A stretch of DNA of 45,008 nt from Amphritea sp. (GTDB lineage: Bacteria; Pseudomonadota; Gammaproteobacteria; Pseudomonadales; Balneatricaceae), in the NCBI RefSeq assembly GCF_016744155.1, contig NZ_JADGEW010000030.1, positions 1-45,008 on the forward strand, read 5' to 3'. The notes under the pieces were generated by a model that searched no databases, was not told where the DNA came from, and worked only from the letters and a program-made list of their open reading frames with translations. Position 1 is the first letter of the stretch. Each line of letters opens with the position of its first letter. Shown here one piece after another: positions 10,508-43,304 of the stretch. The position numbers and the translations under genes were made by a program.

Positions 10508-13051
10508 ATGAAGCTTTCAGACATTTCCCTTGGTATTGCGAATCTTTCGGAAGCGACTTCTTCCAAGATTGGTCAGGAGTACTTTGAGGCCTTGGTTGAG
10601 TATCTCAGCAACGCCTTAAAGATTGATATGGTTTTTATCGGAGAACTTACAGCCAACAAATCTGCCATCCAAACAAAAGCGGTATATGCCCATGGCAGCT
10701 TATCTGAAAACATTACTTATGAGCTGTCAGGAACCCCATGCGATGGGGTAATTGGCCAGAGTGCATGTTTTTATCAGGAGGGTATTCAGCGCTCCTTTCC
10801 TACAGATACCTTGCTTAAAGACCTAAGGATAGAAGGTTACGTTGGAGCACCCCTCTTTTCCCTTACAGGAGCTCCTTTCGGCTTGATTGTGGCTTTACAT
10901 AGTAAGCCGATACTCAATGAAGGCTTTATTCAGACGTATTTCGATTTGGTAGTCGGGCGTGTAGCCGCAGAATATGATCGCCTTAACATCATGGAGCGGT
11001 TAATCGATCAAGAGAAGCAATACCGTGATCTTGTAGATTGTTCTTCTGACTTCATTTGGGAGGTAAATGAAAACGTAGAATACAGTTTTTCTAGTTCTTC
11101 CCCAGATGGACTCCTAGGATATACCGCTGCAGAACTCGTTGGAAAAAAGCCGTTCGATTTTATGCCCAAGGAAGAAGCAGAAAAAGTCAGGCTTTCTTTC
11201 ACATCAATCTGGGAGCAAAGAGAGACCTTTTCTGGCCTTGAGAATATTAATATTCATAAAGACGGGACACTCGTATACATAGAAACCAGTGGTGTTCCGA
11301 TTTTTGACTCTCAAGGCATATTCAAAGGTTACCGAGGTGTAGATCGTAATATTTCAGGGCGGAAGAAGAAAGAGATAGAATTAAAGCTTGCGGCTACCGT
11401 TCTTGAAACGGCAACTGAGGCCGTGATGGTTACTGATATCGATAATCACATCATCAAAGTCAATAAAGCATTTACAACCATTACCGGCTACACAATAGAT
11501 GAAGTCCTGGGGGAAACACCTTCTGTTCTCAAATCAGGACGCCATGATGCATATTTCTATATCGAAATGCTTAAAACCCTTCAGCGATGCGGCGAATGGG
11601 AAGGCGAGATATGGAATAGAAGAAAAAATGGAGAGATTTATCCTGAATGGTTAACTGTTTCTGCAATACAGAATGATCAAGGGGACATAGGCGGCTATGT
11701 CTCACTCTTCAGTGATATTACAAAAAGGAAAGAATACGAAGAGAAGATAGAGTATCAAGCGAATTATGATGCTCTCACTGGTCTGGCTAACCGCCATTTA
11801 TTGGCCGATCGTTTTTCAAGAGCAATCGACCGCGCCGATAGAAAAAATAGCCGAGTTGCCCTCCTCTTCATTGACCTCGATCGCTTCAAACAGGTAAACG
11901 ATAGCCTTGGCCATACGTTCGGTGACAAGCTATTACAAGAGGTCTCCTCCAGGCTCTACAGCCATGTTCGAAAATCAGATACTACAGCCAGGTTAGGAGG
12001 TGACGAATTTGCTGTTATCTTTCCTGACGTGCCCGATATTCATCATGTAGAAGACTCCATCCGGAATATTCTTAACAACCTGTCTAAGCTATATAAAATT
12101 GAAGGTAACGAAGTTTATCTGTCAGCCAGCATTGGGGTAACGGTCTATCCAGATGATGGAATTACCATCGATGATCTCCTGAGAAACGCTGATAGCGCAA
12201 TGTATAAGGCTAAGGAAAATGGGCGTAACTCTTTTCAATATTATTCTGGTGAAATGCACAAAGATGCAGAAAAACGACGCCTACTTGAAAACTCCTTACG
12301 CAGAGCCGTAAATCAGAATGAGTTTGTTCTTTATTACCAACCTATAGTCGATTCTACTACAAAAAACATCGTCGGCAGTGAAGCGCTTATTCGCTGGAAA
12401 AGCCCTGATATGGGGATTGTAAGCCCCGCAGAATTCATTCCACTGGCGGAAGACACCGGTTTAATTTTAACCATTGGCGAATGGGTCTTGAACGAAGCCT
12501 GTCGTCAGATCTCCTCCATACTGCCCACCTGCCCTGAAGATTTCTTTGTCTCTATCAATGTTTCAAGTTATCAATTTAAGAAAAACAATATTCCTTTATT
12601 AGTAGGTAAAGCATTAGAACGCTTCGGTCTCAGCCCGAACAGGCTTGTTCTTGAGATTACTGAAAGTCTTATGTTGAACGATGACAAATGTATATTAGAA
12701 CAATTAGAGGAACTCAGACGCATGGGAGTGGGAATTTCTATCGATGACTTTGGCACGGGCTATTCATCGTTAAGTTATTTACATAAGTACCCTATATCAA
12801 CGCTAAAGATCGATAGAGCTTTTGTTAACGATTTAACCTCAAATAAACAAAGCCGGGCCTTGGTCACTGCAATCATTGCGATGTCTAAAAGCCTTGGGCT
12901 GAAAATGGTAGCCGAAGGCATTGAAGAGGAGCAACAGGCAGCTATTCTTTCACAAGAAGGCTGTACGTTCTTTCAGGGTTTTTTGTTCAGTAAGCCTTTA
13001 CCCTTTGACGAGTTTCTGTGCTTTATTCGTGAGTCAGAACAGGCTATTTAA
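10508..13051 (+). CDS. GAF-PAS-PAS-GGDEF-EAL cyclic di-GMP signalling protein
   Basis: The 847 residues start at an ATG behind GGCGGAG. Order: GAF-like domain ~18-160, PAS ~168-285 (with a PAC-like end SGRKKKEIE), second PAS ~290-415, GGDEF ~425-580, EAL ~595-845. The GGDEF motif is intact (ARLGGDEFAV), with an RKSD inhibitory-site motif five residues upstream. The EAL side is also intact (GSEALIRW, DDFGTGYSSL, VAEGIEEEQ). No membrane helix is seen, so this is a cytoplasmic sensor that could both make and break c-di-GMP. It is monocistronic as far as can be seen. Confidence 0.92.
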   Translation: MKLSDISLGIANLSEATSSKIGQEYFEALVEYLSNALKIDMVFIGELTANKSAIQTKAVYAHGSLSENITYELSGTPCDGVIGQSACFYQEGIQRSFPTDTLLKDLRIEGYVGAPLFSLTGAPFGLIVALHSKPILNEGFIQTYFDLVVGRVAAEYDRLNIMERLIDQEKQYRDLVDCSSDFIWEVNENVEYSFSSSSPDGLLGYTAAELVGKKPFDFMPKEEAEKVRLSFTSIWEQRETFSGLENINIHKDGTLVYIETSGVPIFDSQGIFKGYRGVDRNISGRKKKEIELKLAATVLETATEAVMVTDIDNHIIKVNKAFTTITGYTIDEVLGETPSVLKSGRHDAYFYIEMLKTLQRCGEWEGEIWNRRKNGEIYPEWLTVSAIQNDQGDIGGYVSLFSDITKRKEYEEKIEYQANYDALTGLANRHLLADRFSRAIDRADRKNSRVALLFIDLDRFKQVNDSLGHTFGDKLLQEVSSRLYSHVRKSDTTARLGGDEFAVIFPDVPDIHHVEDSIRNILNNLSKLYKIEGNEVYLSASIGVTVYPDDGITIDDLLRNADSAMYKAKENGRNSFQYYSGEMHKDAEKRRLLENSLRRAVNQNEFVLYYQPIVDSTTKNIVGSEALIRWKSPDMGIVSPAEFIPLAEDTGLILTIGEWVLNEACRQISSILPTCPEDFFVSINVSSYQFKKNNIPLLVGKALERFGLSPNRLVLEITESLMLNDDKCILEQLEELRRMGVGISIDDFGTGYSSLSYLHKYPISTLKIDRAFVNDLTSNKQSRALVTAIIAMSKSLGLKMVAEGIEEEQQAAILSQEGCTFFQGFLFSKPLPFDEFLCFIRESEQAI

Positions 13052-34422: not shown

Positions 34423-35712
34423 CTAGTGGAGTTTCATCTTAGGCTTAACGCTGCTGCCGATTTTTTGTGCAAAATACACAGCTGACGCTTTCACCCAGCC
34501 GTGAATGGCTATCTGGTGCATACGGTACAAAGAGACATAAACCAATCGGGCCATTCGCCCCTCAATAAACATCGATCCTTTGGTCAGATTTCCCATCAGA
34601 CTCCCCACCGTGCTGTAGCGGCTTAAATTCACCAGTGAGCCATGATCTTTATACAAGTACTCCTGTAACGGCTTACCCTGCTCTGTCATAAGGATATTCT
34701 TATATACCAGGCTCGCCATCTGATGCGCCGACTGTGCCCGAGGCGGTACCCAGCTACCATCCGGCTGTTCGCATGCACAACAATCACCAATCACAAAGAT
34801 AGAATCATCAACCGTACTTAACAAACTTGGCTTTACGACTATCTGCCCGTTTCTGTTCGTCTCAAACAAACCAATCGCTTCTATAAAATCTGGCGCTTTA
34901 ACCCCTGCCGCCCAAACCTTAAGGTCAGCCTTGATTGGATCACCATCCAGTGTAATAAAACTACTTTCGTCGGCGCTGGTTACCCGTACATTTTCATGAA
35001 TGGTAATACCCAGGATATTCAGCTCTTTCTTAGCAGCTGCTGCAATCCGCTGAGGTAAAGCGGGCAAAATCCTGGGGCCCGCTTCAATCAGATCGATTTT
35101 AAGCCTTTTAGCCGACATATCCGGCATACCGTAGACCTTCAACAGATCCGCAACATGATTAAGCTCAGCGGCCAACTCAACACCGGTAGCACCACCGCCA
35201 ACGATAGCTAAACGCAGCTCTGCTTCGGTAGACTTTTGGTTGATGCGCAAAAACTGATTTAGCAAAGCCATGTGAAAACGCTCTGCCTGGTGATGAGAGT
35301 CAAGGAAGTAGCTGTGCTCAGCAACGCCTGGAGTGCCAAAATCATTACTCACACTTCCTACTGCCATGACCAGAGTATCGTAAGCAATCTCCCTTTCTGG
35401 CAGCACCTCTTTACCATCATCATCATGCAGTGACTGTAAACGTATAACCTTACTAGCGTTATCTAACCCAATCATTGCACCTAATTGAAACTGATAATGG
35501 TGAACCGCTGCGTGAGCACGATAGATTACGCCATCGCTGTTTATATCCAGCGAGCCCGTTGCGATTTCATGGAGTAATGGCTTCCATATATGCTGACGAT
35601 TACGATCAATCAGAATAATTTGAGCTCGCTTCTTTTTACCTAGCTTATGACCCAACCGTGTCGCCAGCTCAAGACCACCAGCACCACCTCCTACGATTAC
35701 AATTGTTTTCAT
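34423..35712 (-). CDS. ndh: Type II NADH dehydrogenase (NDH-2)
   Basis: The 429 residues hold two dinucleotide-binding folds: IVIVGGGAGGLELATRLG at the N-terminus for FAD and LAIVGGGATGVELAAEL (~169) for NADH. ALPQRIAAAAKKELN and VFVIGDCCAC-like IFVIGDCCACEQPDG (~302) are family features, as is AQSAHQMA (~325). A C-terminal amphipathic part (~380-429) binds the membrane. It passes electrons from NADH to ubiquinone without pumping protons. Confidence 0.92.
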   Translation of the reverse strand: MKTIVIVGGGAGGLELATRLGHKLGKKKRAQIILIDRNRQHIWKPLLHEIATGSLDINSDGVIYRAHAAVHHYQFQLGAMIGLDNASKVIRLQSLHDDDGKEVLPEREIAYDTLVMAVGSVSNDFGTPGVAEHSYFLDSHHQAERFHMALLNQFLRINQKSTEAELRLAIVGGGATGVELAAELNHVADLLKVYGMPDMSAKRLKIDLIEAGPRILPALPQRIAAAAKKELNILGITIHENVRVTSADESSFITLDGDPIKADLKVWAAGVKAPDFIEAIGLFETNRNGQIVVKPSLLSTVDDSIFVIGDCCACEQPDGSWVPPRAQSAHQMASLVYKNILMTEQGKPLQEYLYKDHGSLVNLSRYSTVGSLMGNLTKGSMFIEGRMARLVYVSLYRMHQIAIHGWVKASAVYFAQKIGSSVKPKMKLH

Positions 35713-36008: not shown

Positions 36009-36034
36009 CAAAAAAAACGCCCCTTTCGGGGCGT
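36009..36034 (-). terminator. Terminator of the roadblock/PAS/PhnD-like operon
   Basis: On the minus strand ACGCCCC-GAAA-GGGGCGT is followed by a run of T, starting 5 bp after the last stop codon. Confidence 0.92.
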
Positions 36035-36038
36035 ATTC

Positions 36039-36785
36039 TCAATCGATAAGAGTATCAATCAAATCGATCATAAACTCGGTTTGCTCCGAGTCCATCGGCT
36101 CCCAGTGGCTGACGTCCATACTCTCCAGCACACTCTTACCTTTTTCGTTATCCTGCATAGTCAGCATAGCCTGCTGAATAGCGGGAATATACTCGGCCAT
36201 TCGTGGCCCGACCAGCAAAGAGTGATGCACAACACTAATCTGGCTACTAACCAACACCCGCATTTTAGAGCGAATCAGATCAGACATCTCATCGTAGGCT
36301 TCTTTTAGAAAGAAACCAGCATCCGCGCCACCATTGAGCAAATTCTTCGCTACAACAATATAACTGCTATGCTCTTTTATCTCTGTATTACTTTTATCCA
36401 GATCAGCAGATTCCAGCATGATCATACCCATAGTATGAACATCAGGATCATCTGTTGTTGCTATCCGTGCACCTGCTTTAAGATCCTCAACCGTTTGAAA
36501 ACCGGACTCAGCGTTAACCGCAATCACCGTCTCGTCTGATTTACTGGCAGGCCGCGCTATCGCTTGAAAGCCAAGTTCACGGACCAACATAGACGCATCG
36601 TATGGGTTAGCATAGATAAGATCGAATTTATCAGCGCGAATATCATTACGCTGCGCTTCAAAACTATCATACAGCTCCAGATGAATACCTGTTTCCAGTT
36701 GACGCTGAAGCCAGGTATTAAAAAAATACCATCCAGAGATATGGTCAGGCGCAAAATCAGGGCTGACCGTCAAATTGAAAGTCAT
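36039..36785 (-). CDS. PhnD-like substrate-binding domain protein without signal peptide
   Basis: The start chosen is ATG 36783-36785, 8 bp after GAGGAG (248 residues), rather than the GTG at 36794. The chain follows the phosphate/phosphonate-binding (PhnD, PF12974-type) fold: MTFNLTVSPDFAPDHISGWY, KFDLIYANPYDASMLVRELG (~55), DLKAGARIATTDDPDVHTMG (~103) and NGGADAGFFLKEAYDEM (~150). There is no signal peptide or lipobox, so the protein should stay in the cytoplasm. No ABC transporter genes are near. It is the last gene of a six-gene run, 5 bp after a PAS gene. A sensory rather than transport role is inferred. Confidence 0.75.
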   Translation of the reverse strand: MTFNLTVSPDFAPDHISGWYFFNTWLQRQLETGIHLELYDSFEAQRNDIRADKFDLIYANPYDASMLVRELGFQAIARPASKSDETVIAVNAESGFQTVEDLKAGARIATTDDPDVHTMGMIMLESADLDKSNTEIKEHSSYIVVAKNLLNGGADAGFFLKEAYDEMSDLIRSKMRVLVSSQISVVHHSLLVGPRMAEYIPAIQQAMLTMQDNEKGKSVLESMDVSHWEPMDSEQTEFMIDLIDTLID

Positions 36786-36790
36786 GGCAG

Positions 36791-37261
36791 TCACTCCTCA
36801 GCCAACAAAGTTTTATACAGTGCTTCACTCTCTTCGATCTTACTTCGTGAGGGCTTGCGTCGGACTGAGGTATAGCCCACCAGTTTTCCATTACGAATAT
36901 TTGGAATAACCGTGGCCTTTACCCAGTAATAGGCGCCATCTTTTCGTAAATTTTTAACGTAACCATTCCACTTTGTGCCCTGATCGATCGTATCCCAGAG
37001 CCCCTTAAAAGCTATTGCCGGCATATCAGGGTGGCGTAGAATATAATGGTTAATACCGATCAATTCTTCTTCACTGTATCCGGACATGTCGATAAATGCC
37101 TGATTCGCATGGGTTATAATCCCCTGCGGATCAGTACGTGACACGATCAACTTGCCATCAGGGTATGGAACTTCCCTGTCTGTAATAGCCGCCGTACGCG
37201 CAGTACCATCAAAATACTTTATTTCGACGTTACGAACTTCACCTGTGTCTTGCTCAGACAT
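36791..37261 (-). CDS. Single PAS-domain protein (Aer-type PAS)
   Basis: The 156 residues form one PAS domain, ~25-140: LIVSRTDPQGIITHANQAF, then IDMSGYSEEELIGINHYILRH, then WNGYVKNLRKDGAYYWVKATV. It is the PAS type found at the N-terminus of the Aer redox receptor, which binds FAD. There is no membrane helix, kinase or methyl-accepting part, so it must act through a partner. The C-terminus SEALYKTLLAEE could be a short coiled coil. Stop and the next start are 5 bp apart, so it is probably made together with the PhnD-like protein. Confidence 0.85.
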   Translation of the reverse strand: MSEQDTGEVRNVEIKYFDGTARTAAITDREVPYPDGKLIVSRTDPQGIITHANQAFIDMSGYSEEELIGINHYILRHPDMPAIAFKGLWDTIDQGTKWNGYVKNLRKDGAYYWVKATVIPNIRNGKLVGYTSVRRKPSRSKIEESEALYKTLLAEE

Positions 37262-37343
37262 ACTTCAAGCCTTCTTCGTTCGGAAACCACTTATTGCTCA
37301 GTCAATGACTGCTTTAACAATAATCAGCAACCTACGTTAACGA

Positions 37344-37706
37344 TTAAAGGATCTTACCGATCGCCTCTGCCGCACGCTTAACATCCAGGAAAATCAAACC
37401 CAGACGCGCATTTGGCTTTGCAACAACAGTCAGCACTGAATCCTGGTTTGCATGGGTCATCAGGATATATCCCTCATCACCTTTAACCAGTACCTGCTCA
37501 AGTTCTCCGCGAGCCAGCTCTTTAGCTGTACGCTCACCTAGAGAAAGCATGGCAGCACTCATCGCACCAACACGGTCTTCATCCATACTAGATGGCAACA
37601 ACGCCGCAATCATAAGACCATCTGTAGAGATAACTGCAGAGGCTTCGATATCAGCTGATGTACCGTTGAGATCACTCAAAATTGAGGTAAGCATCTCAGA
37701 ACGCAT
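37344..37706 (-). CDS. Roadblock/LC7 domain protein (MglB-like)
   Basis: The 120 residues are one roadblock/LC7 domain: LTSILSDLNGTSADIEASAVI, STDGLMIAALLP, AMSAAMLSLGERTAKEL, then VLVKGDEGYILMTHANQDSVL and a C-terminal ARLGLIFLDVKRAAEAI. Roadblock proteins form homodimers that bind Ras-like GTPases; MglB is the GTPase-activating partner of MglA. No GTPase gene is in this window. GAAGGAG precedes the ATG. Confidence 0.9.
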   Translation of the reverse strand: MRSEMLTSILSDLNGTSADIEASAVISTDGLMIAALLPSSMDEDRVGAMSAAMLSLGERTAKELARGELEQVLVKGDEGYILMTHANQDSVLTVVAKPNARLGLIFLDVKRAAEAIGKIL

Positions 37707-37760
37707 AGAACACTCCTTCGGTAATGTCTCCCTTTATGGGAGCTATTTAGAATCAAAAAA

Positions 37761-38396
37761 TTAATAATCGAGATAACGACGTGCCAAACAACTCAGTAAT
37801 TCAGCAAATGCCTGCTGATTAAGTCTTGGCATATCCGAGATCACCAGACTAAAACGCTGATGACCAATATGAACAACCCAGAAGCCCACCTGACTCTGCC
37901 CTGCAGCATTCATAATGCCCCAGGAGTCGCCAGCCAGCTCAAGGTCGTTAGTTATAACTTTCTGATGACGCTCTTGCAGTGATATCAGATCTGCTGCCAG
38001 TGCTGCCAACGTTTCGGCCTGCTCTGATGGGTAGCCTGTAGAAGAAAGACAGAAGCCCTGATCGTCTGCGAGCAATGCTTTACCACTATCAGACAACTGC
38101 ATTAACAGATCAGGCAGAGTGTCTTCTAAGGGCCCTCGCTTAATTTCAGGCAGCGTCTCTGTAAGACAGACAAAGCCCCTGTCTAATAACTGCTGAAATA
38201 ACCCCATTGCCTGCACTTCATCCAGATCCGCCAGTTCAGAAACAAGCTCAAGGGAGTACAACAGTTCAAAATCGGTCGATAGCAATTGCAGCAACATCGC
38301 CCGCGCGTCATCCGGGGTCGAATTCAGTGTTGCAAAAAAAGCACCGCTAGGAGTTATAGCGATATAACGAATGGAGTCCTGATTAAAATCTCCCAC
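37761..38396 (-). CDS. Unknown protein, possibly roadblock-fold C-terminus
   Basis: The 211 residues start at GTG. I do not recognise a named family. The second half (~95-211) reads like a roadblock fold: a long helix LEDTLPDLLMQLSDSGKALL, a DDQGFCLSSTGYP strand-turn, helix AETLAALAADLISLQERHQ, then strands SWGIMNAAG and GFWVVHIGHQRFSLVIS and a last helix. It precedes the roadblock/LC7 gene by 54 bp in the same operon, so a heterodimer is plausible. The N-terminal 90 residues are a separate helical region. Confidence 0.65.
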   Translation of the reverse strand: MGDFNQDSIRYIAITPSGAFFATLNSTPDDARAMLLQLLSTDFELLYSLELVSELADLDEVQAMGLFQQLLDRGFVCLTETLPEIKRGPLEDTLPDLLMQLSDSGKALLADDQGFCLSSTGYPSEQAETLAALAADLISLQERHQKVITNDLELAGDSWGIMNAAGQSQVGFWVVHIGHQRFSLVISDMPRLNQQAFAELLSCLARRYLDY

Positions 38397-38492
38397 CTAC
38401 TATTCTCCGTATACCTTCATAAATTATCTTACGCCCCCATGATTCACAAAATATCTACGAATCAACATTTAGGACTCTAACTACACCACAAC

Positions 38493-39788
38493 TTATTTAA
38501 ATGCGCCCACAGCATTGGCCGCAGTCATAAAAGAAAAAACGTAACGCTGATGAATTTTCAGTACCTTGACCACTTCCAGAGCAGACAAACTATGCCGCCC
38601 CCATAAACTACCTATAGTCGTCGCATGAGGAATAGCAAGCAATTGATTAAAATCAAGTTTCTTTGACAGCCGCAGAGGTTTTTCAGGGTCAATACTACGG
38701 TTCAAGCGACCTTTTGAAGTCCAGAGCGCGAGCTTCCACATTAGCTCGTCACTATCGACAACTGTCACCGTTGAGCCCGCTACACTAGGACGATCAGCAT
38801 CCAGATCAGGACGCACCTTCAGCGTTAACTCCTGATAACCAAAACGTGTCAGCGCCAGAGGCACTAACAGCTCTTCACTAAAATCGAATAAAAAGTTCTT
38901 CTGCTCTGGCAGATACGCAAGAGTGCCGGGTAAACCGGTAATCTCAACGGGCACTTTCTGAGCCTCGCCCTCAGCAATCACTTCCTGAAGGATAGCCAGC
39001 AAGGTTGAATCATCTTTGAAAAATACTCGGCGACGCTGATCTGGCTCATGCATATTCACATCAGGGGCATTACCACAGCACTCATATACCATTTGATAGG
39101 ATAGCTTAGCTCTGACGTCCTGGGGCTTCTTTTCGGGTGTTTTCTGCGGTGCTGGCGTCGCTACCTTAATAGCCTCTAATTTAGACGGCGCTACGACAGG
39201 TTTCTGAGCACCTGTTTTTTTAACAACAGCTTCAGGTGGCACCACTGGGGATTCTGAGGGAGCTGAATTTGTGTCATTCAGCTGAAAACGCTGGCGTACC
39301 TGCTGAGAAAGCTCATCCCGATCAGTCGTTAAAGAGCTGTAATCAGACATTGCCTGACGACCCGCTGCAACACGCTTTTGATATTCTTGAAACGCTTTCT
39401 CCCCTTCATTACTTAGGCTGGGAGAGCTGTTCATATCTTTTTTAGCCGGTACAAATTTTTCAACAGCCTGCTTAATCGCTTTAATAAGCCGCTTGCCTTC
39501 CAAAGGCTTACTTAATGTTTCAAAACCATCAAACGAGTTTTCGGTCGCAGTAACAGCAATGATCGGACGACTGGCTTTGTATTGTTCAATAACGGGTTTA
39601 ACCGCAGGGTGCTCCATATCGATGATCAAGACTTCAGCCTGTTCAGTCGGTACCATACGGTATGCCTCCTGATGCTGCATAAAGAACAGATCAATCGCTG
39701 ATTTGGATTGCAGCTCAAAGCCAACGACACCCAGCTTGATAACTTTGCTTGCTGCACGTTTGCTTAGTTTGATATGAGATACTCCCAC
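38493..39788 (-). CDS. Pseudo-receiver protein with long linker and C-terminal unknown domain
   Basis: The 431 residues start at GTG. Residues ~15-112 resemble a CheY-like receiver: VIKLGVVGFELQSKSAIDLF, VLIIDMEHP (Asp at the usual site), PIIAVTATE and LSKPLEGKRLIKAIKQAV (Lys-Pro of strand 5). The acidic pair after strand 1 is not evident, so it may be a pseudo-receiver. Residues ~113-235 are a low-complexity linker rich in Pro, Lys and Ser. Residues ~240-431 form a second domain ending IPHATTIGSLWGRHSLSALEV and LKIHQRYVFSFMTAANAVG, which I cannot name. Part of the roadblock operon. Confidence 0.65.
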   Translation of the reverse strand: MGVSHIKLSKRAASKVIKLGVVGFELQSKSAIDLFFMQHQEAYRMVPTEQAEVLIIDMEHPAVKPVIEQYKASRPIIAVTATENSFDGFETLSKPLEGKRLIKAIKQAVEKFVPAKKDMNSSPSLSNEGEKAFQEYQKRVAAGRQAMSDYSSLTTDRDELSQQVRQRFQLNDTNSAPSESPVVPPEAVVKKTGAQKPVVAPSKLEAIKVATPAPQKTPEKKPQDVRAKLSYQMVYECCGNAPDVNMHEPDQRRRVFFKDDSTLLAILQEVIAEGEAQKVPVEITGLPGTLAYLPEQKNFLFDFSEELLVPLALTRFGYQELTLKVRPDLDADRPSVAGSTVTVVDSDELMWKLALWTSKGRLNRSIDPEKPLRLSKKLDFNQLLAIPHATTIGSLWGRHSLSALEVVKVLKIHQRYVFSFMTAANAVGAFK

Positions 39789-39827
39789 GACTATTCCCGC
39801 CCTGTTTAAGTCAGTTTTACTAATTGA

Positions 39828-40280
39828 TCAATGCAGCGAAAAACAGCCATTGCACAGAACAGATTTCTGAGAATTCAGCGATAGCAGCCTGGAGTTGTCA
39901 CCATCATCCAAAACAGCTTTGAACAATTCCAAGTCATCAGGGTTAAGTAGCGGAGCACCCTGATCAAGCAAACGCTGCCTTAACGCAAGGCCTCGCCCGT
40001 CTAGAGTCAGAAACAGATCCATCAACGCTCCCGTGAGCTCGACACCATCATGACAAAGAACAGAAAGGTACACCCGCTGAACGTGGCTGCGGAGGTTATT
40101 AGATGTAGACGCAACCAAGCGATTGAAGTGATGAAGCAGTACGGACTTGTGAGGCCCATCATAGATCAGCCCCTTACCTTCAAGTGCGGTAAAAAGAGTC
40201 TCAATATTGAGGGCGTTTAGCCCCTCAAGTTCTGCATTCAGTTCCCAGCCAGAAACAGCTGCCCAAATAGGTGAATTCAC
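39828..40280 (-). CDS. Unknown first gene of the roadblock operon
   Basis: The 150 residues start at GTG behind GAGGTCGGG. The protein appears largely helical and soluble, and the C-terminus carries VLCNGCFSLH with two cysteines. I do not recognise a family. It lies 39 bp before the pseudo-receiver gene and has no gene in front of it on the same strand for 430 bp, so it probably opens the operon. Confidence 0.6.
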   Translation of the reverse strand: MNSPIWAAVSGWELNAELEGLNALNIETLFTALEGKGLIYDGPHKSVLLHHFNRLVASTSNNLRSHVQRVYLSVLCHDGVELTGALMDLFLTLDGRGLALRQRLLDQGAPLLNPDDLELFKAVLDDGDNSRLLSLNSQKSVLCNGCFSLH

Positions 40281-40709: not shown

Positions 40710-43304
40710 GTGCTTGTAGCTTACCGTGAACATGCAGAAAGACGCGCCCAAGAAGGCGTGCCAGCTAAACCATTGGATGCTGATCAGACAGCCTCTCTAG
40801 TTGAACTATTGAAAAATCCGCCGGCTGGCGAAGAAGCATTTATCCTGGACCTGCTGGAAAATCGTGTTCCTGCTGGTGTTGACCAAGCTGCTTATGTAAA
40901 AGCTGGTTTCCTTGCCGCTATTGCTAAAGGCGAAGCCTCATCCCCACTGATTGATAATGTAAGAGCGGTAGAATTATTGGGCACTATGCTCGGCGGTTAC
41001 AATATCCAGCCACTGATTGCAGCTCTGGATGTCGATGCTCTGGCACCTACCGCAGCTAAAGCACTGTCTCACACGCTATTGATGTTTGATGCATTCCATG
41101 ACGTTAAAGAGAAATCTGACGCAGGTAACCTCCACGCTAAACAAGTTCTTGAATCATGGGCTAATGCCGAGTGGTTTACTGCTAAGCCTGAAATTGCTGA
41201 GAAGATCACCGTTACTGTATTCAAAGTAACCGGTGAAACAAATACTGATGACCTGTCTCCCGCTCCGGATGCTTTCACCCGTCCAGACATCCCACTGCAC
41301 GCTAATGCGATGCTGAAGATGGCTCGTGATGGAATTGTTCCTGAGACGCAGGGCTCTGTAGGCCCGCTGAAGCTAATCGAAGAGGTTAAAGCTAAAGGAT
41401 ACCCTGTTGCGTACGTAGGTGATGTTGTAGGTACCGGCTCTTCACGTAAATCAGCAACTAACTCGGTTCTGTGGTTCTTCGGTGATGATATCCCGAACGT
41501 GCCAAACAAGCGTGCTGGCGGATATTGCTTCGGTAATAAGATTGCACCTATTTTCTTTAACACCATGGAAGATGCAGGCGCCCTGCCTATCGAAATGGAT
41601 GTTGAGAAAATGAACATGGGTGACGTTATAGACGTTTACCCATATGAAGGTGTTGCTAAAAACGCTGAAACTGGCGAAGTACTGAGCGAATTCAGCCTGA
41701 AAACGCCAGTGCTGTATGACGAAGTACGCGCCGGCGGCCGCATCCCTCTGATCATCGGCCGAGGCCTGACTGACCGTGCACGTGAAGCGCTGGGTTTAAG
41801 CCCTACTGAGCTGTTCCGTAAGCCCGATCAACCTACTGACACTGGCAAAGGCTACTCTCTTGCTCAAAAGATGATTGGTAAAGCTTGTGGTATCGAAGGT
41901 GTTCGCCCTGGTACATACTGCGAACCTAAGATGACGACTGTTGGCTCTCAGGATACTACTGGTCCTATGACCCGTGACGAACTGAAAGACCTGGCTTGCC
42001 TTGGCTTCTCTGCTGACCTGACGATGCAGTCTTTCTGCCACACTGCTGCTTATCCAAAGCCTATTGATGTAAACACTCATCATACTCTGCCAGATTTCAT
42101 CATGAACCGTGGCGGTGTATCTCTGCGCCCTGGTGACGGTGTAATCCACTCTTGGCTGAACCGCATGCTGCTACCAGATACTGTTGGTACCGGTGGTGAC
42201 TCTCACACCCGTTTCCCAATCGGGATCTCTTTCCCTGCAGGTTCTGGCCTGGTTGCTTTCGCAGCAGCTACCGGCGTTATGCCTCTGGATATGCCTGAGT
42301 CTGTTCTGGTTCGCTTCAAAGGCGATAAGCTTCAGCCCGGTATTACTCTTCGCGACCTGGTTAACGCTATTCCTTACTACGCTATCAAGCAGGGTCTGTT
42401 GACCGTTGCTAAAGCTGGTAAAACGAATATCTTCTCCGGTCGAATCCTTGAAATCGAGGGCCTGCCTGACCTGAAAGTCGAGCAAGCATTTGAACTGTCT
42501 GATTCGGCTGCTGAACGTTCAGCTGCTGCCTGTTCAATCAAACTGAACGAAGCACCAATTAAAGAATACCTAAGCTCAAACATCACCATGCTTAAGTGGA
42601 TGATCGCGGAAGGTTATGGTGACCCACGTACTATCGAGCGTCGTATCGTTGGTATGCAGGAATGGATGGCTAACCCTGAGCTAATGGAAGGCGATGCTGA
42701 TGCAGATTATGCCGCCGTTATCGAAATCGATCTGGATGATGTCAAGGAGCCAATCCTGGCCTGCCCTAACGATCCGGATGACGTTAAGCTGCTGACTGAC
42801 GTTGCAGGCACACAGATCGATGAAGTATTCATCGGTTCTTGTATGACCAACATTGGCCACTTCCGCGCTGCAGGCAAGCTACTTGAAGCCGCCGGCACTA
42901 CTACGCCAACCCGTCTGTGGATCGCTCCACCGACTAAGATGGACGCAGCACAGCTGACTGAAGAGGGTTACTACAACATCTTCGGAAAAGCAGGCGCGCG
43001 TATGGAGATGCCAGGCTGTTCTCTATGTATGGGTAACCAGGCACGTGTAGGCGACAACACTACCGTTGTTTCTACTTCTACCCGTAACTTCCCTAACCGT
43101 TTAGGTACTGGCGCTAACGTTTACCTGTCTTCTGCTGAACTGGCTGCTGTAGCAGCTCTGACCGGCAAAATACCTACAGTTGCTGAGTATATGGAGTACG
43201 CGTTAAAGATCGACAGCATGGCTGAAGATGTTTACCGCTACCTGAATTTCGATCAGATCAAGACTTATCAGGATGCAGCTTCAAACGTTATCGCTACTGC
43301 ATAG
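40710..43304 (+). CDS. acnB: Aconitate hydratase B
   Basis: The 864 residues match E. coli AcnB (865) from end to end. Order: N-terminal HEAT-like helical domain ~1-160, swivelling domain ~165-380 ([36 protein letters not shown]), then the catalytic domains. The [4Fe-4S] cysteines are in [12 protein letters not shown] (~711) and [10 protein letters not shown] (~770). It interconverts citrate and isocitrate and hydrates 2-methylaconitate. The start is GTG with GAGGGG upstream. A terminator follows at 43386. Confidence 0.97.

Follow-up and report, generated by a model that had tools for sequence, protein, structure and literature searches.

What kind of system is encoded by an operon that places two roadblock-type proteins beside a PAS protein and a phosphonate-binding-protein-like protein, with no Ras-like GTPase among its genes? 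The question is raised by a contig of Amphritea sp. (NZ_JADGEW010000030.1, assembly GCF_016744155.1); the whole stretch of 45,008 nucleotides analysed is called the window here. A sequence-only reading of the window had noted six same-strand genes with small gaps and one terminator, and all six open reading frames (ORFs) were confirmed on the minus strand between positions 40280 and 36039. In order of transcription these genes 1-6 are named P1, P2, P3, ROB, PAS, and PhnD; the intergenic gaps measure 39, 96, 54, 82, and -4 nt, the reading frames of PAS and PhnD sharing 4 nt. The terminator was located as well: a terminator-like hairpin that matches the consensus (36034-36017, minus strand) stands immediately 3' of the last stop codon, with a 7-pair stem (6 G-C pairs) followed by a T run. 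The terminator scan returned 10 such sites versus 6.5 in shuffles, and alone is little proof. None of the six genes encodes a coupled Ras-like GTPase of up to 240 aa. The operon is a real and conserved system, the derivative of a described, little-characterised kind (the Group 3 MglA systems), and the GTPase has left it. On balance, it would represent the sensor-and-roadblock half of an MglA/MglB-type small-GTPase switch of that group, fed by redox state and a ligand and serving polar or type IV pilus control.

Conservation of the six-gene set

Relatives were collected by scanning the genome collection with ROB, and the best 80 of at least 532 relatives were kept (the best-80 set). Within the genus, ROB was present in 12 of 16 genomes, and all six genes kept their order and shared strand in each of ten Amphritea loci. 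In all ten, nonsynonymous divergence (dN) was far below synonymous divergence (dS) for every one of the six genes, which are under strong purifying selection. ROB itself is 100% identical in seven of the ten other Amphritea loci compared. Three of these (L082-L084), from three genomes in which no GTPase was found, differ from the window by a dS of 1.5-2.1; in the remaining four dS is merely 0.23-0.57 and identity is less telling. That the genes travel together also held in the wider family, where 32 of 36 loci of the best-80 set carry the six in order. One of the four deviating loci starts at a contig end (L166), two lack PAS and PhnD (L174 and L197), and in L196 the P2 frame starts before P1. 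PAS and PhnD were both present in 34 of the 36 family loci versus 21 of 38 loci whose operon bears a GTPase (see below), a further one of which (L225, on a contig of 3330 bases) has PAS only. In L197, a Motiliproteus locus, a gene with a response-regulator domain (10522-11346) lies right behind ROB.

A GTPase and FimV/HubP genes in the operons of distant relatives

ROB and P3 occur together in 74 of the best-80 loci. The other six comprise four with ROB alone (L190, L204, L208, L214), L192, where the contig ends with ROB and its frame was not called, and L224, where ROB-PAS-PhnD is followed by P1-P2 and P3 was not seen. In 38 of the 74 a gene for a small Ras-like GTPase separates P2 from P3; these loci come from Thiothrix, Leucothrix, Sphaerotilus, Methylocaldum, Rhodocyclaceae, and others. 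The 36 loci without an operon GTPase all belong to the family of the window (Amphritea, Neptuniibacter, Neptunomonas, Marinobacterium, Nitrincola, Pontibacterium, Motiliproteus, and bins labelled only Oceanospirillales or Oceanospirillaceae), and their positions on contigs agree with those in the sampled family genomes with ROB. In a second sample, of 11 loci with P3 from outside this family (L069-L079), the operon GTPase was found in five (L069, L070, L076, L078, L079), which represent four other families (f14, f18, f45, f36); these proteins of 175-182 aa are again encoded between P2 and P3, and the four scanned matched PF03029 at 1.8e-9 to 2.6e-13. The suggestion that an MglA-like GTPase might join the roadblock gene in other genomes is thereby borne out, with the exceptions in the second sample considered further below. 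All 43 operon GTPases have the P-loop, the GTPGQ motif (G3), and the DAR motif (G5), and a canonical [NT]KxD motif was seen in only two of them. Two- or three-gene loci joining a GTPase and a roadblock protein also occur among L127-L138, judging by gene order.

A FimV-type gene follows ROB or PhnD on the same strand in 20 of the 38 GTPase-bearing loci (FimV-type profiles), and a curated FimV_core or FimV_Cterm cut-off was passed in 15 of 15 loci scanned. PilB exceeded its cut-off in 57 of 62 family genomes with ROB versus 29 of 54 without it. Together, the FimV/HubP neighbours and PilB are suggestive of the cell pole and of type IV pili, and the FimV/HubP genes in the operons of relatives make likelier the link with polarity or motility that had been guessed from the window.

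The GTPase elsewhere in the family

The sequence-only reading had placed the GTPase elsewhere in the genome, and for much of the family this is the case. The family sample comprised 116 genomes, 62 of them with ROB; an operon-type GTPase, detected with a profile of the operon form, was present in 41 of these 62 and in none of the 54 without ROB (Fisher 9e-16, kinship ignored). The genome of the window is among the 41 and encodes one such relative, a 334-aa protein on contig C25 (at about 87164-87694). In 39 of the 41 genomes, one or more of the matches fall in open frames of 316 aa or longer, and these long proteins usually bear an added C-terminal domain. In the 17 long family GTPases compared, GTPGQ is present in 17, DAR in 16, a full P-loop in 14, and [NT]KxD in none; in the three without a full P-loop the compared stretch starts inside or behind it. 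Of eight stretches of the added domain scanned, three matched Robl_LC7 at sub-threshold values of 0.0017-0.0027. The long gene is multicopy in some genera, with two adjacent copies in L122 and three copies in one genome for L123, L124, and L125; in L124 it stands two genes from a protein with HAMP and histidine kinase sensor domains.

In a tree of 86 GTPases (IQ-TREE), the 17 long family GTPases, from 11 genomes, formed one group (support 100/99) that joined the 43 operon GTPases (100/96) apart from 26 others, which include two short GTPases of the family. A topology in which the operon GTPases form their own group to the exclusion of the family ones was not rejected (approximately unbiased, AU, test, p 0.31), so that closest kinship is claimed rather than nesting, both nested and sister arrangements being compatible with the test. 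The simplest reading is that, in the past of the family, the GTPase gene left the operon and its product acquired a further domain; such a relocation, as opposed to a GTPase and an operon that were always apart, is what we infer from these sequences.

The remaining 21 of the 62 genomes with ROB are where the earlier claim finds no support, since no operon-type GTPase was found in them by the operon profile or by PF03029; Amphritea atlantica is one species of this kind. The PF03029 check covered 28 genomes and gave no match in these 21, four matches in four positive controls, and none in three genomes without ROB. PF00071 matched in each of 25 genomes examined; most of these matches fall in long frames (about 300-870 aa), which by their length are taken for housekeeping GTPases. 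One of the 21 may encode a further Ras-like protein, in a frame of 873 aa that contains a Ras-like stretch (G339:C5:1178156-1178611; PF00071, 1.2e-14).

The six proteins and their predicted folds

ROB (37344..37706, minus strand; 120 aa) is a roadblock/LC7 protein (Pfam Robl_LC7, 7.6e-17) and the best conserved of the six, 97-100% identical to the Amphritea copies and 76-84% identical in Thiothrix, Sphaerotilus, Methylocaldum, and others. P3 (37761..38396, minus strand; 211 aa) matched Robl_LC7 only below threshold (2.4e-4, 21.2 bits versus a cut-off of 23). Structure prediction, proposed earlier as a check on this protein, revealed an MglB-type roadblock C-terminal half: the AlphaFold model (predicted local distance difference test, pLDDT, 88.2; predicted template modelling score, pTM, 0.83; 29 sequences) has MglB and other roadblock chains as its top Foldseek matches (best 4.8e-5), and its N-terminal half appears winged-helix-like from the order of helices and strands. 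When P1, P2, P3, and the C-terminal domain of the family GTPases were aligned (hhalign) with profiles of roadblock and other families, no match exceeded 2% probability, the alignments probably being too shallow, and the roadblock call for P3 is therefore based on AlphaFold and Foldseek.

P2 (38493..39788, minus strand; 431 aa), for which a pseudo-receiver and a long linker had been predicted, has no Pfam match. In its AlphaFold model (pLDDT 83.2, pTM 0.52, 26 sequences) an N-terminal receiver fold, whose best Foldseek matches are receiver domains (4.1e-4), leads into a long helix and then a disordered linker, and the C-terminal domain closes with a three-helix unit. This unit looks winged-helix-like from helix order alone, structural matches not confirming it. 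Relatives carry D (47), N (19), or G (4) in the phospho-acceptor column, and strand 1 does not end in an acidic pair, on which grounds P2 is regarded as a pseudo-receiver; P (71) is preceded by K (57) or R (14). Family copies neither cut nor split range from 369 to 643 aa. The middle domain (about residues 260-345) may resemble PATAN. P1 (39828..40280, minus strand; 150 aa) is a helical protein, and the window copy had no Pfam or NCBIfam match up to an E-value of 1. It measures 148-190 aa in 35 GTPase-less family loci and is mostly longer, at 157-308 aa, in 35 GTPase-bearing ones of the best-80 set. Four of four long P1 proteins scanned gave weak TPR matches under the curated cut-offs, and the C-terminal part absent from the family proteins thus looks TPR-like.

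The lone PAS protein (36791..37261, minus strand; 156 aa) is of the Aer type, as had been predicted: in addition to Pfam PAS_3 (2e-16), it matched the solved PAS domain of an aerotaxis receptor (8dik) at 1.2e-35 over residues 28-152, and 59 columns, RHPDMP included, are at least 95% identical across 57 relatives. It is probably a flavin-based redox sensor. The PhnD protein (36039..36794, minus strand; 251 aa) matched Pfam Phosphonate-bd (PF12974) at 1.1e-41, and Y61, A62, N63, P64, D66, P117, and E128 are invariant in 55 of 55 relatives. Its description as leaderless agrees with hydropathy in the window and in relatives: the N-terminus is not strongly hydrophobic, with a peak 15-residue value of 0.63 in the window copy and of -0.19 to 1.35 (median 0.23) over 55 relatives. 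The protein is probably a cytoplasmic ligand sensor.

Relation to known systems

Group 3 MglA systems were defined computationally in 2014 from beta- and gamma-Proteobacteria, with a core, as described there, of a protein with a receiver-like N-terminus, a variable linker, and a winged-helix C-terminus, together with MglA and one or two MglB proteins (Wuichet and Sogaard-Andersen, PMC4316618). P2 corresponds to the first of these by its receiver-like N-terminus, its linker, and, from helix order alone, a winged-helix-like C-terminus, and two MglB homologues are present in ROB (by Pfam) and P3 (by Foldseek). The GTPases in the operons of relatives and the long family GTPases share GTPGQ and DAR and mostly lack the G4 lysine, features given as signatures of Groups 2 and 3 (PMC4316618). 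This assignment is one of gene content and motifs, the GTPase tree being built from our own 86 sequences. In contrast to the published systems, the GTPase of the window's family is encoded away from the operon and in most cases carries an extra domain, and since a coupled GTPase is absent from the window and 36 family loci, the operon is considered a Group 3 derivative rather than a full member. P1, PAS, PhnD, and the FimV/HubP genes of relatives likewise go without mention in the parts of PMC4316618 consulted, in the main text of which 'PAS' and 'periplasmic' have zero occurrences. The earlier statement that no described system has this set thus falls for the core and stands for its company: in the open-licence literature searched, no roadblock operon joined with PAS and PhnD was found, nor, in the text available from these sources, was the steady company of P1, an Aer-type PAS protein, and a leaderless PhnD protein met with, or FimV/HubP downstream in relatives.

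Three further systems bear comparison. The Snodgrassella mgl locus comprises a Group 3 mglA and two coupled mglB genes, and mutation of a third, orphan mglB is reported to alter type IV pilus-dependent motility (PMC11112851); unlike in the window, the GTPase is still coupled to mglB, and PAS and PhnD go without mention in the part of that source consulted. The Myxococcus MglA/MglB/RomR module likewise unites a roadblock protein, a Ras-like GTPase, and a receiver-domain protein (PMC4316618) and has a TPR effector, SgmX (PMC7519303), but its GTPase is of Group 1 with an intrinsic arginine finger and mglA is distant from the partner genes, according to the text of PMC4316618. Actinobacterial conservons (CvnA-D) also combine a roadblock protein, a GTPase with the DAR motif, and a sensor in one operon. 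The sensor is a histidine kinase there, versus soluble PAS and PhnD-like inputs here, and none of the six proteins has a Pfam match to a kinase domain or to DUF742, which we take to be CvnC. The GTPase gene is reported to be lost from some conservons (PMC4316618).

A proposed mechanism and its alternatives

In the mechanism favoured here, ROB and the winged-helix-roadblock protein P3 would form a platform that controls a Ras-like GTPase. The PAS protein, through the redox state of its flavin, and the PhnD-like protein, through a small and probably anionic ligand, would both signal into this platform through ROB, and P2, with its pseudo-receiver and putative winged helix, may be a scaffold or output adaptor. 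Sensors stand beside ROB outside the operon too: a lone ROB gene has a PAS gene directly upstream in L190 and L208 and a protoglobin-like gene directly downstream in L204 and L214, these four loci coming from three assemblies in which the operon is present too (as L183, L195, and L203), and a protoglobin lies within the operon in L210 and L227 (Pfam). ROB is therefore likely a docking point for sensors. A second, more distant PhnD-like gene occurs between P3 and ROB in L183 (8708), L195 (3457), and L203 (2068). In the probable ancestral arrangement, the GTPase gene would stand between those for P2 and P3, and a gene for a FimV/HubP polar landmark would often follow downstream; because of this frequent FimV/HubP neighbour in the GTPase-bearing form, the most likely output would be to position type IV pili or some other polar machine, or to set its activity. 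Members of the family (Amphritea, Marinobacterium, Neptuniibacter, Nitrincola, and others) would now encode the GTPase at other loci, mostly extended by a C-terminal domain that is possibly a roadblock, and its loss seems to have occurred in some species.

Several observations weigh against this mechanism. FimV-type profiles found no FimV neighbour in the 36 family loci, and PilB is also present in same-genus genomes without ROB (G001, G003, and G012). PAS and PhnD are not essential to the core, as both are absent from 16 of the 38 GTPase-bearing loci and from two family loci. In the second sample, an operon GTPase is absent from six of the 11 loci with P3, namely L071 and five of a single genus (L072-L075 and L077). 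In two of the 41 family genomes with a GTPase the sole match is short: that of G214 (176 aa) groups with the 26 others in the tree, and that of G386 (228) has no placement in it. The added domain had no Robl_LC7 match in five of the eight stretches, the copy from the window's own genome included, and given that the other three match under the cut-off it is only possibly roadblock-like. Finally, the absence of a GTPase from 21 of 62 genomes with ROB means that the operon may function without one.

This last point is the start of a different explanation, which we regard as a tentative possibility, that in the family the two roadblock proteins, together with PAS and PhnD, form a signalling complex that has become independent of any Ras-like GTPase and that the GTPases elsewhere are accessory. 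Besides these 21 genomes, searched with two profiles, it can draw on the fact that ROB is unchanged between the window and the three GTPase-less Amphritea in spite of their dS, and on four loci of one other genus (L072, L074, L075, and L077) that keep ROB, PAS, PhnD, a P1-like protein, and P3 while P2 and the GTPase are absent. It is conceivable, although doubtful, that roadblock proteins and their Aer-type PAS and PhnD sensors signal without any Ras-like GTPase in part of the family and also, as a separate case, in a second lineage. Nevertheless, ROB and GTPase are tied together by the presence of ROB in 41 of 41 family genomes with the GTPase, four of the five P3-bearing genomes of the other genus hold a more distant GTPase elsewhere, and the ubiquity of PF00071 matches makes another GTPase partner possible. 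Nor is decay a convincing account of the missing gene: a functionless Group 3 remnant might be suspected from an operon without the GTPase and without the TPR-like part of P1, but the selection seen on all six genes in the ten same-genus loci and their retained order in the family speak against it and make it very improbable.

As to the output, the switch may instead control a set of genes through the winged helices of P2 and P3, an idea to which we assign a minor chance. The winged-helix-like P2 C-terminus and P3 N-terminus fit it, on the helix and strand order of the AlphaFold models, and a transcriptional role has been proposed for Group 3 systems (Wuichet and Sogaard-Andersen, PMC4316618). 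However, neither protein has a Pfam match to a DNA-binding domain, the Foldseek matches listed are mainly receivers for P2 and roadblock-type chains for P3, and the FimV/HubP neighbours of relatives indicate the cell pole. The PF12974 match might finally be taken to mean that the PhnD-like protein is a transporter part and the operon one for phosphonate or phosphite uptake. This is highly unlikely: hydropathy gives no sign of a signal peptide in PhnD or most relatives, no permease or ATPase gene was found among the six by Pfam, and the score against the transporter subfamily TIGR01098, 24.9 bits, is far under the cut-off of 112.05.

Many bacteria possess small Ras-like GTPases and roadblock proteins as their partners. 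Under the favoured sensor-and-roadblock mechanism, candidate inputs can be named for Group 3 systems, namely flavin redox state, oxygen (by the protoglobin of relatives), and a small ligand (by a cytoplasmic PhnD protein), as can a candidate output, the poles marked by FimV/HubP. The family also offers a natural experiment, with the GTPase out of the operon and in places not found while ROB stays nearly frozen, and the need of a roadblock protein for a GTPase becomes directly testable in Amphritea or Marinobacterium. Should a GTPase-free complex prove true, MglB-type proteins can outlive the switch that they were thought to serve.

Neighbouring genes

Directly downstream of the operon on the same strand lies a gene for a pyridine nucleotide-disulphide oxidoreductase (NDH-2-like; 34423-35712, minus strand), with a hairpin at 35762-35733. 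Among the ten same-genus loci it was seen in L081-L084, with a weaker partial match in L090, and nowhere else; being present in few same-genus loci only, it is probably outside the operon. On the other side, a divergent gene (40710-43304, plus strand), which we take to be of the aconitase type, recurs beside the operon in many family loci (L064-L068 and L083-L090) and is an old neighbour.

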